Source of the DNA: Holdemanella biformis DSM 3989
Lineage (GTDB): Bacteria > Bacillota_I > Bacilli_A > Erysipelotrichales > Erysipelotrichaceae
Assembly (NCBI RefSeq): GCF_000156655.1
Contig: NZ_DS996842.1
Span: 125,785 to 177,214, forward strand
Direction of reading: 5' to 3'
Length of the DNA stretch: 51,430 bases
Both the position numbers and the translations under genes were made by a program. Of the stretch, positions 21,622 to 27,336 are shown piece by piece (positions within the stretch are counted from its first letter, which is position 1; every line of letters starts with the position of its first letter). The notes beneath the pieces were generated by a model, which worked only from the letters and a program-made list of their open reading frames with translations, was not told the origin of the DNA and did not search any database.

Positions 21622-22356
21622 ATGGGAAGACATTTTGAGGTACGTGCTGCCGCAATGCAGAAAACTGCCAATGCGAAAGCAAAAATTTATTCTAGATATT
21701 CTAAAGAGATTTTAGTTGCTGCAAAGAACGGTGACCCAAATCCAGATATGAACCAAACTTTAAAGAAAGCCATTGATCGTGCTAAGGCCAACAATGTGCC
21801 TGCTGACGTAATCAAACGTGCAATCGAAAAGGCAAAAAGTAGTGCAGATGAAAGTTATTCAAGTGCTCGTTATGAAGGTTTTGGCCAAGGTGCAGGATCT
21901 ACAATCATTATCGATTGTTTAACAGATAATGCGAACCGTACAATTGCCAATTTAAGAGCTTGTTTCAATAAATCACACGCTAAATTAGGTGTAGGTGGAT
22001 CTGTATCATTTGGATATGAACACTTAGGTGTGATCGTTATTCAATATGATAATGAAGAAGCTATGATGGATGCTTTATTAGATGCTGAAATTGAATTAAA
22101 TGACATTGAAATCGAAGAAGGATATATGACAATTACAGTTGATCCAACACAATTGGATGACGCAAAAGTTGTTGTTGAAAAATTGATTCCAGATGTTAAA
22201 TTTGAAGTCTTAGAAGATAAGATGATTCCAAATGAAGAGGTTGAACTTCATGGTGAAGATTTAACTTTATTCAAACGTTTAGTAACTTTACTAGATGAAG
22301 TGGATGATGTACAAAATGTATATCATAACGTTTCAAATCTAGATGAAGCTGAATAA
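21622..22356 (+). CDS. yebC: YebC/PmpR family protein
   Basis: YebC-type proteins were named transcriptional regulators. Work on the family links them to relief of ribosome stalling at proline-rich stretches. The protein here has 244 residues and the diagnostic start MGRHFEVRAAAMQKTANAKAKIYSRY, followed by GDPNPDMNQTLKKAIDRAKANNVP and the central YEGFGQGAGSTIIIDCLTDNANRT. The acidic C-terminal domain ends in DEVDDVQNVYHNV. The ATG at 21622 with AAAGGTGAT upstream is preferred over 21604. The gene ends just before the T-box of hisS-aspS. Confidence 0.9.
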   Translation: MGRHFEVRAAAMQKTANAKAKIYSRYSKEILVAAKNGDPNPDMNQTLKKAIDRAKANNVPADVIKRAIEKAKSSADESYSSARYEGFGQGAGSTIIIDCLTDNANRTIANLRACFNKSHAKLGVGGSVSFGYEHLGVIVIQYDNEEAMMDALLDAEIELNDIEIEEGYMTITVDPTQLDDAKVVVEKLIPDVKFEVLEDKMIPNEEVELHGEDLTLFKRLVTLLDEVDDVQNVYHNVSNLDEAE

Positions 22357-22562
22357 TTAATCCTAAGAAAAAGAAGAAGATAAGGATATACTGTAGAGAG
22401 AAAATGGTTGGTGAAAATTTTCGTAGAATACTTATTGGGACACTTTGGAGGAGTTGGACAAAAACCAACCGTTGGTCGCGTTAAGACTTGAGGTGTATAC
22501 TTTACGTATAAAATAAGGTGGTACCGCGTTTAAAACGTCCTTATATCAGGGCGTTTTTTTGT
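22357..22562 (+). promoter_or_regulatory. T-box leader controlling hisS-aspS
   Basis: This leader has the standard T-box parts. AGAGAG with GGTTGGTG in the distal loop of stem I (about 22395-22412) comes first. A specifier region GGGACACTTTGG (about 22427-22438) follows. The antiterminator T-box motif AGGTGGTACCGCG is at 22516-22528. Last is a terminator with AAACGTCC (22533-22540) paired to GGGCGTTT (22549-22556) and a T run. Uncharged tRNA binding favours the antiterminator and switches on the synthetase genes. The unpaired triplet appears to be GAC (aspartate), overlapping CAC (histidine). No clear promoter is seen; transcription may come through yebC. Confidence 0.9.
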
Positions 22563-22583
22563 TTATTTAAAGGAGGAAAACGC

Positions 22584-23894
22584 ATGGCATATCAAATTCC
22601 TAGAGGTTGTCAGGATGTATTTGGATCTGATTCTTACAAATGGCAAGCTCTTGAACAAACATTAAGAAGCTTTTGTTACATGTACAATTATGATGAAATT
22701 CGTACACCAATTTTTGAACATACAGAAGTCTTCAAAAGAGAAAATGACTCAAGTGATATGGTAAACAAAGAGATGTATACTTTTAAACTTGAAAACTCAA
22801 AAACATCATTAACATTACGTCCAGAAGGTACAGCTGGAGTGGTTCGTAGTTTTGTAGAAAACAAAATGTATGCCAATCCAGATCTACCCGCAAAATTCTA
22901 TTATATGGGTCCTATGTCAAGACATGAACGTCCTCAAAAAGGTAGAATGCGTATCTTTAATCAATTTGGTGTAGAAGCATTGGGTGTAAAAAGTCCTTAT
23001 GTCGATGTCGAAACAATCGTACTTGCATTCTCAATTCTTAAATCATTGGGATTAAATGATATTAAAGTATGTTTAAATACTTTAGGTGATGATGAATCTC
23101 GTGCAAACTATCGTAGTGCATTAAAAGAATATTTTGCACCTTATGTCGATGAATTGTGTAGTGATTGTAAACGTCGTTATGAACAAAATCCATTACGTAT
23201 TTTGGATTGTAAAGTGGATCACGATCATGAATGTATGAAAAATGCACCTAAGATGTCGGATTACTTAAATGAGGCAAGCCAAGAATATTTCAACACAGTA
23301 TGTGAATTATTAGATAAACTCGAAATTCCATATGAAGTTGATGATAAATTGGTTCGTGGATTAGATTACTATACGCATACTGTATTTGAAATTGTATCTA
23401 TGAATTCAGAAATGGGTGCACAATCAACTGTTTTAGCAGGAGGACGTTATGACGGATTGATTTCATACTTTGGTGGACCAGAAGGCATGAGTGGTATTGG
23501 ATGGGCCTTAGGTATGGAACGCTTGTTGATTGCTTTAGAAGCAGAAGGTATTGAACTTGAAACAAAGCCTGCATTAGATGCCTATGTAATGTGTCTAGAT
23601 CCAGAAGCTAGAACATATGCGTTTGAAGTTTTAACTTCGCTTAGAGCTTATGGATATCGTTGTGATATGGATATGATGGAAAGAAGTTTTAAGGCACAAT
23701 TTAAGGCTGTGGATCGTTCAAAGGCCAAACTTGCGATTTTAATTGGTAAATCGGAATTGGAAGAAAAGAAAGTCACAGTAAAAAATATTGCGCATAAAGA
23801 ACAAGAATCAATCGAAGTCGAGAAATTGATTCCTTATGTTGACTCTGTTTTAGAAGAAGAAAGTCATCATCATCACGAGCATGAAGGAGAATAA
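22584..23894 (+). CDS. hisS: Histidyl-tRNA synthetase
   Basis: HisRS is a class II synthetase that charges tRNA-His. The N-terminus MAYQIPRGCQDVFG is typical. Motif 2 is seen in FYYMGPMSRHERPQKGRMR, the histidine-specific motifs in LVRGLDYYTHTVFE and AGGRYDGLI, and motif 3 in GIGWALGMERLL. The length is 436 residues from ATG 22584, behind AAAGGAGGA; the frame back to 22518 lies in the T-box terminator. The C-terminus ends with an unusual acidic and histidine-rich tail (EEESHHHHEHEGE). aspS starts 2 bases downstream in the same T-box unit. Confidence 0.95.
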   Translation: MAYQIPRGCQDVFGSDSYKWQALEQTLRSFCYMYNYDEIRTPIFEHTEVFKRENDSSDMVNKEMYTFKLENSKTSLTLRPEGTAGVVRSFVENKMYANPDLPAKFYYMGPMSRHERPQKGRMRIFNQFGVEALGVKSPYVDVETIVLAFSILKSLGLNDIKVCLNTLGDDESRANYRSALKEYFAPYVDELCSDCKRRYEQNPLRILDCKVDHDHECMKNAPKMSDYLNEASQEYFNTVCELLDKLEIPYEVDDKLVRGLDYYTHTVFEIVSMNSEMGAQSTVLAGGRYDGLISYFGGPEGMSGIGWALGMERLLIALEAEGIELETKPALDAYVMCLDPEARTYAFEVLTSLRAYGYRCDMDMMERSFKAQFKAVDRSKAKLAILIGKSELEEKKVTVKNIAHKEQESIEVEKLIPYVDSVLEEESHHHHEHEGE

Positions 23895-23896
23895 AA

Positions 23897-25633
23897 ATGT
23901 ATAGAACACACAATAATGGTGAATTGCGTCTTCAAGATGTAAATTCAGAAGTCACTTTATGTGGCTGGGTAAGTAAACGTAGAAACTTTGGAGCTTTGGT
24001 TTTCATTGATTTAAGAGATCGTTATGGTATTACACAACTTGTATTCAATGAAGATATTGCAGCACAAATCAGTGATGTACGTAATGAATATGTACTTCAA
24101 GTAAAGGGTACTGTTGTAGAAAGAAAAGATAAGAATCCTAAACTTGAAACAGGTGAAATTGAAGTTGTAGTTAGTGAAGTAAAAATCGTCAATACAGCAA
24201 TCACGACACCTATGATCATTGCGGATGAAACAGATGCATTAGAGGATACGCGTTTAAAATATCGTTATTTGGATTTAAGAAGACCTGTTCTTCAAAAGAA
24301 TTTAATTTTAAGAAATCGTATTACTTTATTAGTTCGTAACTACTTAGCTAAATATGGTTTTACAGAAGTGGAAACACCTATTTTATGTCGTTCTACACCA
24401 GAAGGGGCTCGTGACTATTTAGTGCCTAGTCGTATTAGTAAAGGTGAATTCTATGCACTTCCACAATCGCCTCAATTATATAAACAACTATTGATGGTTG
24501 GTGGAATGGATCGTTATTTCCAGATTGCACGTTGTTTTAGAGATGAAGATTTAAGAGCTGACCGTCAACCTGAATTCTCACAGATCGATATTGAAATGAG
24601 TTTTGTGGATGAAGAAGACATTTGGTCAATGACGGAAGGTTTAATGAAAGAAATCTTCAAAGATATCAAAGGCATTGAATTACCAGAATTTAAACGTATC
24701 CCTTATGATACTTGTATGGAAAAATATGGTTCAGATAAACCAGATTTACGCTTTGACATGCCTTTATATAATGTGAGTGAGGTCTTCGCAAATACTGAAT
24801 TTAAAGTGTTTGAAAATTGTTTGAATGAAGGTGGCATCATTCAGGCTATGAATGTTAAAAATGGGGCCGATAAGTTCTCAAGAAAACAATTAGATAAGTT
24901 ACAAGATTATGTAAAGGTATATGGTGCAAAAGCACTTGCCAACTTAAAATTAACATCTGAAGGTTTTGCGGGTAGTGTCACAAAAGTATTGTCAGATGCT
25001 GAAAAAGAAGCGTTACGTACAATGTTAAATATTGAAGAAAACGATATTGTATTCTTTGTAGCGGATAAAAAGAAAGTGGCGCAAACATCTTTAGGTGCAT
25101 TGCGTGTGAAATTAGGTCACGATTTAGATTTGATTAACAAGGATGCCTATGAATTCTTATGGGTTACTGATTTCCCTATGTTTGAATATGATGAAAATGA
25201 AAACCGTTATGTAGCGGCTCACCATCCATTTACATCTCCTAACTTAGAAGATGTCGATAAATTGATGTCGGATCCAGCACATTGTTATTCTAGAGCTTAT
25301 GACTTAGTATTAAACGGATATGAATTATTATCAGGTTCAATTCGTATTCATGATCAAAAACTTCAAGAAAAAGTCTTTGAAGCCATTGGTATGACTTTAG
25401 AAGAAGCACATGAAAAATTCAGCTGGTTTATGGATGCGTTCCAATATGGAACTCCACCTCATGGAGGTGTAGGTATCGGTCTAGAACGTTTAACAATGAT
25501 TTTAGCGGGTACAGACAACATTCGTGATGTAGTGGCATTCCCTAAAACAGCAAGTGCATCGGATTTAATGGCACAGGCACCAAGTCCAGTAGATCCAACA
25601 CAATTAAAAGAATTAGGTATTGAAACAAAGTAA
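23897..25633 (+). CDS. aspS: Aspartyl-tRNA synthetase
   Basis: AspRS is a class IIb synthetase that charges tRNA-Asp. The order is an N-terminal OB-fold anticodon-binding domain (VTLCGWVSKRRNFGALVFIDLRD), the catalytic core with motif 2 (RYFQIARCFRDEDLRADRQPE), a bacterial GAD insertion in the middle (around residues 300-410), and motif 3 in GVGIGLERLTMIL. The 578 residues are near the usual length for the bacterial type. Transcription is coupled to hisS through the shared T-box leader, and a strong terminator follows. Confidence 0.95.
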   Translation: MYRTHNNGELRLQDVNSEVTLCGWVSKRRNFGALVFIDLRDRYGITQLVFNEDIAAQISDVRNEYVLQVKGTVVERKDKNPKLETGEIEVVVSEVKIVNTAITTPMIIADETDALEDTRLKYRYLDLRRPVLQKNLILRNRITLLVRNYLAKYGFTEVETPILCRSTPEGARDYLVPSRISKGEFYALPQSPQLYKQLLMVGGMDRYFQIARCFRDEDLRADRQPEFSQIDIEMSFVDEEDIWSMTEGLMKEIFKDIKGIELPEFKRIPYDTCMEKYGSDKPDLRFDMPLYNVSEVFANTEFKVFENCLNEGGIIQAMNVKNGADKFSRKQLDKLQDYVKVYGAKALANLKLTSEGFAGSVTKVLSDAEKEALRTMLNIEENDIVFFVADKKKVAQTSLGALRVKLGHDLDLINKDAYEFLWVTDFPMFEYDENENRYVAAHHPFTSPNLEDVDKLMSDPAHCYSRAYDLVLNGYELLSGSIRIHDQKLQEKVFEAIGMTLEEAHEKFSWFMDAFQYGTPPHGGVGIGLERLTMILAGTDNIRDVVAFPKTASASDLMAQAPSPVDPTQLKELGIETK

Positions 25634-25692: not shown

Positions 25693-27336
25693 ATGAAGGC
25701 AATTCCAATTGGCATTTCAAATTTTGAAGAACTCAGAAATAATAACTATTATTTTGTTGATAAAACCAATATGATTCAGGAATTTTTAGAAAGAAAAAGC
25801 AAAGTCACATTGATTACGCGTCCTAGGCGTTTTGGAAAGACTCTAAACATGTCTATGATGGCTTCTTTTTTTGATGTTACAAAAGATTCTAAATATATAT
25901 TTGAAAATACAGTGATCATGAATTCTGACTATATAAACGAAATGAATCGATATCCTACTATTTTTATTTCGTTTGCGAATGCGAAAAGAGATAGAGAATC
26001 TATTATCACAACTATAAAAAAACAAATTCTAAGCGAATGGGCAAAATATGAATATGTTTTTAAAAATTTAAATAAATACGATCAAAAAGAACATGATTAT
26101 ATTGAATCTAATTTAATGGATTTTCACAGTAATAATTTAAATGGAATCAATGATGCATTATCATTCTTGATGGAAAGACTCTATGCTTACTATAATAAAC
26201 AAGTCATGGTTTTCATAGATGAATACGATACACCATTTATTGAAGCTCACGTGAATGACTGCTATGAAGAATTACGAGGTGGATTATCAGGTTTACTTCA
26301 TAATTCTTTAAAAACATCGGATTGTTTAAAATATGCACTACTTACTGGAATTCAAAGAGTTGCGAAAGAAAATATTTTTAGTGATCTGAATAATTTAGAT
26401 GTGAATTCGGTACTCGATACTGCTTATAGTGAGTATTTTGGGTTTAATACAGATGAAGTTAATCAATTGTTAAATACGTATGGTTTAACTTTAAATGATG
26501 ATGTTAAATCTATGTATGACGGATACAAAATCGGAAGTATTGATATATATAATCCTTGGTCTATATTAAATTACGCTCAAAAGAAAGAATTAATTCCATA
26601 TTGGATCAATACAAGTGCAAATACAATGATTAAAGAGAATATCAAGAATGCAGATTTAGATTATAAAGATCAATATGAAGATTTAATCAAAAATGGATAT
26701 TTAGATACACAAGTCAATACGCAAACTAGCTTCTATGAAGTGAAAAGCACTCCAAATTTATGGGGATTATTTGTGAATGCGGGATATTTAACAATAGATA
26801 AAGTCATTGATATTACGGATAGCTTCTATCGCATTCGAATTCCAAATCAGGAAGTGAATAGAGAATTTAGAAATTTAACTGAATATTATCTTTCCTTAAA
26901 TGAAGGACAATTAAATCGACTATTACGTTTCTTGATTCAAGAACAACCGGATGAATTTATCAAAGAATATAAAAACATCTTAATGTTACCTAGTTATCAT
27001 GATTTAAAGAATGAAAATAGCTATCATATGATGATGCTTGGGATGTGTTTATGTTTATCTAGAGATTATGAAATTATAAGCAATATGGAAGCTGGAAAAG
27101 GACGTTTTGACCTTGTATTAAAGGCAAAATATAGTAAATCTACTTCTTTTGTATTGGAATTTAAATATTTAAAAGGTACTTCTAAAAATTTAGAATCCGA
27201 TCTTGATAATCTAACAAATGAAGAAATTGAACAGATTCAATCTAAAAATTACTCGTTTGATTTAAAAGAAGAAGTGATTTATATAGGATTAGCTCATCAT
27301 GGAAAAGATATTAAGATGAAATGGGTTGAAAGATAG
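25693..27336 (+). CDS. AAA-ATPase-like protein with C-terminal PD-(D/E)XK nuclease fold
   Basis: This 547-residue protein belongs to a family expanded in gut anaerobes. An AAA-ATPase-like domain is fused to a PD-(D/E)XK nuclease-superfamily domain. The N-terminus PIGISNFEELR and YYFVDKT is diagnostic, with the P-loop variant RPRRFGKTLNMSM near residues 43-55, Walker B VMVFIDEYDTP near 170-180, and YDGYKIG and NPWSILNY further on. The C-terminal domain has GRFDLVLKAK and FVLEFKYLKG, the Asp and Glu-x-Lys of the nuclease core. The biological role of the family is not established. It stands as a single gene with its own promoter and terminator. Confidence 0.82.
   Translation: MKAIPIGISNFEELRNNNYYFVDKTNMIQEFLERKSKVTLITRPRRFGKTLNMSMMASFFDVTKDSKYIFENTVIMNSDYINEMNRYPTIFISFANAKRDRESIITTIKKQILSEWAKYEYVFKNLNKYDQKEHDYIESNLMDFHSNNLNGINDALSFLMERLYAYYNKQVMVFIDEYDTPFIEAHVNDCYEELRGGLSGLLHNSLKTSDCLKYALLTGIQRVAKENIFSDLNNLDVNSVLDTAYSEYFGFNTDEVNQLLNTYGLTLNDDVKSMYDGYKIGSIDIYNPWSILNYAQKKELIPYWINTSANTMIKENIKNADLDYKDQYEDLIKNGYLDTQVNTQTSFYEVKSTPNLWGLFVNAGYLTIDKVIDITDSFYRIRIPNQEVNREFRNLTEYYLSLNEGQLNRLLRFLIQEQPDEFIKEYKNILMLPSYHDLKNENSYHMMMLGMCLCLSRDYEIISNMEAGKGRFDLVLKAKYSKSTSFVLEFKYLKGTSKNLESDLDNLTNEEIEQIQSKNYSFDLKEEVIYIGLAHHGKDIKMKWVER

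Follow-up and report, generated by a model that had tools for sequence, protein, structure and literature searches.

The T-box leader of the hisS-aspS operon in Holdemanella biformis probably reads GAC and senses tRNA-Asp, the tRNA of the second gene

The window, by which we mean the whole 51,430-nucleotide stretch of Holdemanella biformis DSM 3989 DNA that was analysed, contains a single RNA family match in an Rfam scan, a complete T-box leader whose identity is far above chance level. The two genes behind it both exceed their NCBIfam cut-offs and the leader exceeds the gathering score of its family, so the arrangement read from the sequence in an earlier note, a T-box leader ahead of hisS and then aspS, holds. 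In window positions, the locus consists of the following.

22356-22545, forward strand: T-box leader, a full-length match to model RF00230 (model positions 1-219; 114.1 bits, gathering score 93, E 1.4e-24)
22584-23894, forward strand: hisS, histidyl-tRNA synthetase (TIGR00442, 475.5 bits against a cut-off of 286.75, NCBIfam)
23897-25633, forward strand: aspS, aspartyl-tRNA synthetase (TIGR00459, 791 bits against a cut-off of 373.85, NCBIfam)

Only 2 bases separate hisS from aspS, and the encoded HisS is 96% identical to that of Holdemanella porci. The T-box match begins at the final base of the stop codon of a preceding yebC-like gene. A search of 22200-22620 gave no sigma-70-like promoter, and transcription may enter the leader from upstream genes by readthrough. 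Immediately after aspS lies a 547-aa frame (25693-27336) with no NCBIfam match over its cut-off, whose motifs look like those of an AAA-ATPase-like protein. The genome as a whole has 21 T-box matches, 17 of them over the cut-off.

The 3' part of the leader has what a transcription-attenuating T-box should have, a predicted antiterminator with a UGGN bulge and a predicted terminator that competes with it. The region scanned held two terminator-like sites where 0.2 were expected.

22513-22544, forward strand: antiterminator, helix 22513-22518/22539-22544, bulge, and helix 22526-22530/22534-22538 (fold of 22511-22545)
22519-22525, forward strand: T-box bulge UGGUACC, with U22522 as the variable base N (sequence and fold)
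22532-22557, forward strand: intrinsic terminator of 10 bp with a 6-nt loop and a U tract (terminator scan and fold)

Which tRNA such a leader senses depends on the register in which its specifier is read, and here the pentamer GACAC holds an aspartate and a histidine codon in overlapping frames.

22370-22373, forward strand: 5' strand of the lower helix, AAAG, directly under the specifier loop and pairing with 22443-22446 (fold, Rfam alignment and covariation)
22437-22442, forward strand: unpaired GGGACA, which makes up the 3' side of the specifier loop (minimum-energy fold; pairing probabilities 0.05-0.08)
22439-22441, forward strand: putative specifier codon GAC (Asp), followed by A22442 (coincides with the triplet of model RF00230 in an alignment read by eye; GAC in 160 of 161 set 1 leaders, defined below)
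22441-22443, forward strand: +2-frame His codon CAC, sharing C22441 with GAC and in our judgement no specifier (third base in the lower helix; CAC/CAU lost in relatives)
22443-22446, forward strand: 3' strand of the lower helix, CUUU (Rfam alignment and fold)

The earlier note had placed GACAC within 22420-22440 and inside the specifier loop. The pentamer is indeed there, but it occupies 22439-22443 (GGGACAC starts at 22437) and so ends three bases further on; GGGACA is unpaired in the minimum-energy fold as proposed, but C22443, the third base of the CAC, is the first base of the lower helix. Similarly, the pairing of GATAAG with CTTATT above the loop, folded by hand in that note, stands, while the pairing below it is not UCCUAAG with CUUUGGA but AAAG with CUUU, followed by a second segment in which UCCU (22361-22364) pairs with AGGA (22449-22452).

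Alignment to a T-box covariance model, a check that the earlier note had itself suggested, puts GAC in the specifier slot. In the Rfam alignments, read by eye, the GAC of the window shares its slot with the codons of other T-boxes of the same genome, namely UAC-A (L001), AGC-A (L004), AUC-A (L010), AAC-A in the asnS leader (L018) and CAC-G in the hisZ leader (L005), the last two genes being identified by NCBIfam matches. According to the description of TBDB, the default specifier is the triplet 2-4 bases before the loop end and only 1-base shifts are considered (PMC7778990). For CAC to be the specifier, a shift of two from the default triplet would be needed, with the last base helical.

A more elaborate possibility is that stem I alternates between two folds, one presenting GAC to tRNA-Asp and the other CAC to tRNA-His, so that a shortage of either would raise both synthetases. 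Both hisS and aspS are in the operon, and the energy needed to release CAC in the fold is small, about 1.4 kcal/mol (-9.1 against -10.5 kcal/mol). In a two-codon T-box, however, the second codon should lie within the specifier loop, and here the third base of CAC is helical, if only with a pairing probability of 0.60 in the single-sequence fold; the fold of stem I as a whole is no more stable than that of shuffled sequences (z 0.72). A purine after the specifier is described as kept for stacking and as the rule (PMC7583486), but after CAC there would come a U.

The lower helix itself is borne out by comparison among relatives. Since RNAalifold returned no consensus pairs on a MAFFT alignment of 71 leaders, the helix was named beforehand from Rfam and the folds of the window, and its pairs were then counted. 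Alignment A1 comprises 71 non-redundant leaders. In it, 91.9% of the cells of the four base pairs below GACA are paired, and the covariation score of these pairs is 0.640; shuffled versions give 0.196 and slid versions no more than 0.230. In A2, comprising 80 leaders of a second class fitted to model R1, 94.6% of the lower-helix cells are paired. At the pair corresponding to C22443 and its partner, 42 of these 80 leaders have G-C, 18 have A-U, 14 have another combination and 6 have a gap. This paired change from G-C to A-U is visible in A2 only; A1 has no two-sided change at that pair (G-C 61, G-U 2, other 8). The third base of CAC thus belongs to a covarying helix pair, which argues against its being read by tRNA-His.

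To follow the two codons through evolution we used two sets of leaders. Set 1 consists of hisS upstream regions, mostly from the class of the window: 249 loci went in, those lacking a strong match to hisS were excluded, and removal of identical upstream stretches left 232 distinct regions, of which 161 have the T-box motif. Among these 161 are the leader of the window and four leaders (L048, L055, L056, L063) that come from other classes. Set 2 comes from the class of Rummeliibacillus; the motif is present in 99 of 110 regions, and 80 of the 99 were aligned by R1, the other 19 being inspected separately and kept outside the counts. One locus, L048 and L328, is counted twice among the resulting 241 leaders. 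A regular expression for ACAC was rejected as a specifier locator in Bacillales leaders and replaced by R1, having picked wrong sites in, for example, L362, L364, L370, L372, L376 and L392, where the true specifier is GAC, then A or G, then A.

GAC is kept in the slot of these orthologous leaders, as would be expected of an Asp-specific T-box. The set 1 pentamers are GACAC (143), GACGC (4), GACAT (4), GACCC (3), GACAG (3), GACAA (2), GACGT (1) and AACAC (1), and aspS follows in 160 of the 161. In set 2, 52 leaders have GAC and 28 AAC. The histidine codon is less stable. CAC alone is lost in 17 of 161 set 1 leaders; as CAU also encodes histidine, we widened the measure of loss to CAC/CAU, and 13 of the 160 set 1 leaders with GAC lack both. 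Over both sets the +2 His codon is gone from 33 of 212 leaders that retain GAC, which on the HisS tree takes no fewer than 18 changes, and from one AAC leader among the 241. A two-codon T-box would be expected to keep both codons in its relatives, and these do not.

The frequent presence of CAC is itself rather ordinary. Among other T-boxes with an NNC specifier in the genome of the window and in G416 (alignments read by eye), CAC or CAU stands at +2 in 13 of 16 when three unclear rows are dropped, or in 13 of 19 when those rows are counted as lacking a His codon. The GAC leaders of set 1, with the His codon in 147 of 160, differ from this control with p 0.17 if the rows are dropped and p 0.007 if they are counted, and those of set 2, with 32 of 52, with p 0.23, all of these being weak figures in that they ignore relatedness among leaders. 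An overlap of CAC with an NNC specifier is near the default, since specifiers usually precede an A and then a pairing C. The asnS leader of the same genome makes the point, as it reads AACAC and thus holds an overlapping CAC of its own; it shares the NNC-A-C layout and UGGU with the hisS-aspS leader and differs in its specifier, AAC, and its gene. The overlapping CAC is most likely a by-product of what follows the specifier, namely a conserved A and a C engaged in the helix.

The acceptor end of the tRNA provides a further test. From the tRNA gene sequences, the host tRNA-Asp has G73 and the host tRNA-His C73. The bulge of the window leader is UGGU, and U22522 could form a wobble pair with G73 of tRNA-Asp, as an Asp-specific leader should. 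In the GAC leaders N is U in 129 and C in 31 of 160 (set 1), and U in 29 and C in 23 of 52 (set 2). Leaders of hisZ look different: in the family of the window, 18 of 20 hisZ upstream regions (L462-L480) contain a T-box, with CAC in the slot after GAA in 18 of 18 (one intervening base in 3); their N is A (15 leaders), U (2) or G (1). The difference in N between GAC and hisZ leaders has a Fisher p of 3e-19 with relatedness ignored. UGGA, typical of hisZ leaders, is absent from all 160 GAC leaders of set 1, which again speaks against two-tRNA sensing. As A does not pair with C73, UGGA on hisZ leaders serves here as an empirical mark; TBDB omits His T-boxes from discriminator matching (PMC7778990), the reason being that the discriminator base can be paired internally.

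These comparisons also bear on the simpler idea that CAC is the real specifier and the leader is specific for histidine. It would suit hisS as the first gene, and the hisS-aspS T-box of Staphylococcus aureus has been named a histidine T-box (PMC7927825). However, register, covariation and variants all point to GAC, and the same genome possesses a true His T-box for comparison, the hisZ leader L005, which shares the T-box architecture but has CAC in the slot, followed by G, and UGGA. The window leader departs from it on both counts, with GAC-A rather than CAC and a purine, and UGGU rather than UGGA. We consider a histidine-specific leader highly improbable. The preference of the earlier note for GAC over CAC is thereby upheld, with the Rfam register, the helix covariation, the relatives, and UGGN together with the tRNA discriminator bases in agreement.

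A different kind of variation is seen in the first base of the specifier. Over the 241 leaders the slot holds GAC in 212 and AAC in 29, with at least four GAC/AAC switches on a FastTree phylogeny of the 241 HisS proteins. Both tRNA-Asp and tRNA-Asn are substrates of a non-discriminating AspRS, and in Bacillus subtilis AspRS charges tRNA-Asn as well. It is therefore conceivable, though on balance doubtful, that the operon sensor is switchable, its slot moving between GAC (Asp) and AAC (Asn) across the Bacilli. Such switching is compatible with the aspartate reading and makes no different prediction for the window; the genome of the window carries asnS behind a leader with AAC, so that AspRS need not serve tRNA-Asn there.

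Within set 2 the AAC leaders have A as N in 15, C in 10 and U in 3 of 28. AACAC together with UGGA precedes hisS in a clade of Bacillales (L327-L332, L337, L338, L342, L344, L346, L350, L351, L355, L357, L481-L509), and in a sample of the Rummeliibacillus family this combination occurs in 28 of 28 distinct leaders, three of which repeat genomes already among the Bacillales leaders. In one member, L357, the pentamer is AACAU and the helix (UUCG/CGAA) matches it, which leaves a His codon in place. UGGA arises once on the HisS tree, within AAC leaders. Rummeliibacillus tRNA-Asn has G73; with G73 on both tRNA-Asn and tRNA-Asp, the UGGA of this clade matches neither and resembles that of His T-boxes. 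Other AAC leaders, with UGGC, have lost the His codon (L404, and outside the counts L359 and L378). In L359, L363, L366-L368, L378, L380, L382 and L385, a helix of 5 bp comes after AAC-A, formed by CAAGA or CAAGG with UCUUG, or by AUAGA with UCUAU in L359 and L378, where AAC is kept and CAC lost; this layout indicates an Asn codon before hisS-aspS in those Bacillales leaders. A Rummeliibacillus genome (L318) also has tandem T-boxes at 1222-1444 and 1501-1725, each of which carries the Thr codon ACC in its slot, along with UGGA. We found no publication on an Asn reading of hisS leaders in the literature searched. Outside the window, it is a possible though rather unlikely scenario that hisS-aspS leaders were re-addressed in evolution, with GAC in the class of the window and many Bacillales and AAC elsewhere, that the AACAC/AACAU clade with UGGA may be an Asn/His or a His sensor, and that GACAC/AACAC served as a stepping stone.

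The pattern in the window is already known, and the window is another copy of it. GACAC is described as characteristic of hisS-aspS T-boxes, for which Gutierrez-Preciado et al. (2009) are reported to have favoured mainly an interaction with aspartyl-tRNA (PMC5313534); operon, pentamer and preferred Asp reading are the same here, and we found no difference from that account. The two-tRNA idea is also in print, since PMC4342826 cites the same 2009 work (its reference 99) for two alternative structures that sense both tRNAs. The earlier note had called a response to two tRNAs, or to the tRNA of the second gene, an interesting regulatory variant; both readings thus had precedents. A two-codon T-box for tRNA-Asn and tRNA-Glu, reportedly binding both tRNAs, is credited to Saad et al. 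(2013), who worked on Clostridium acetobutylicum (as described in PMC4052509). Like the leader of the window, it has codons for two tRNAs that overlap near the specifier loop, whereas in the window CAC is partly helical and is not kept in relatives. With the +2 His codon repeatedly lost while GAC is kept, its third base helical and UGGA absent, the reading in which this leader responds to both tRNA-Asp and tRNA-His is not sustained, and we regard it as unlikely. As far as sequence comparison goes, the leader could still bind tRNA-His weakly.

In all likelihood, then, the hisS-aspS leader is an ordinary transcription-attenuating T-box with GAC as its specifier, sensing the tRNA-Asp of the second gene. 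Going by established T-box knowledge, the leader, whose sequence, genes, register, covariation and partner tRNA sequences are described above, would bind uncharged tRNA-Asp through pairing of its GUC anticodon with 22439-22441, and the 3' end of the tRNA would pair with UGGU (22519-22522) through a G73-U wobble. The antiterminator would then form and RNA polymerase would proceed into hisS-aspS; with tRNA-Asp charged, the terminator at 22532-22557 would form instead. An Asp-sensing leader upstream of hisS would couple hisS expression to the charging of tRNA-Asp. An out-of-register codon beside a T-box specifier is no ground for reading dual specificity, and as far as sequence allows, the question of which tRNA this operon senses is settled in favour of that of its second gene.
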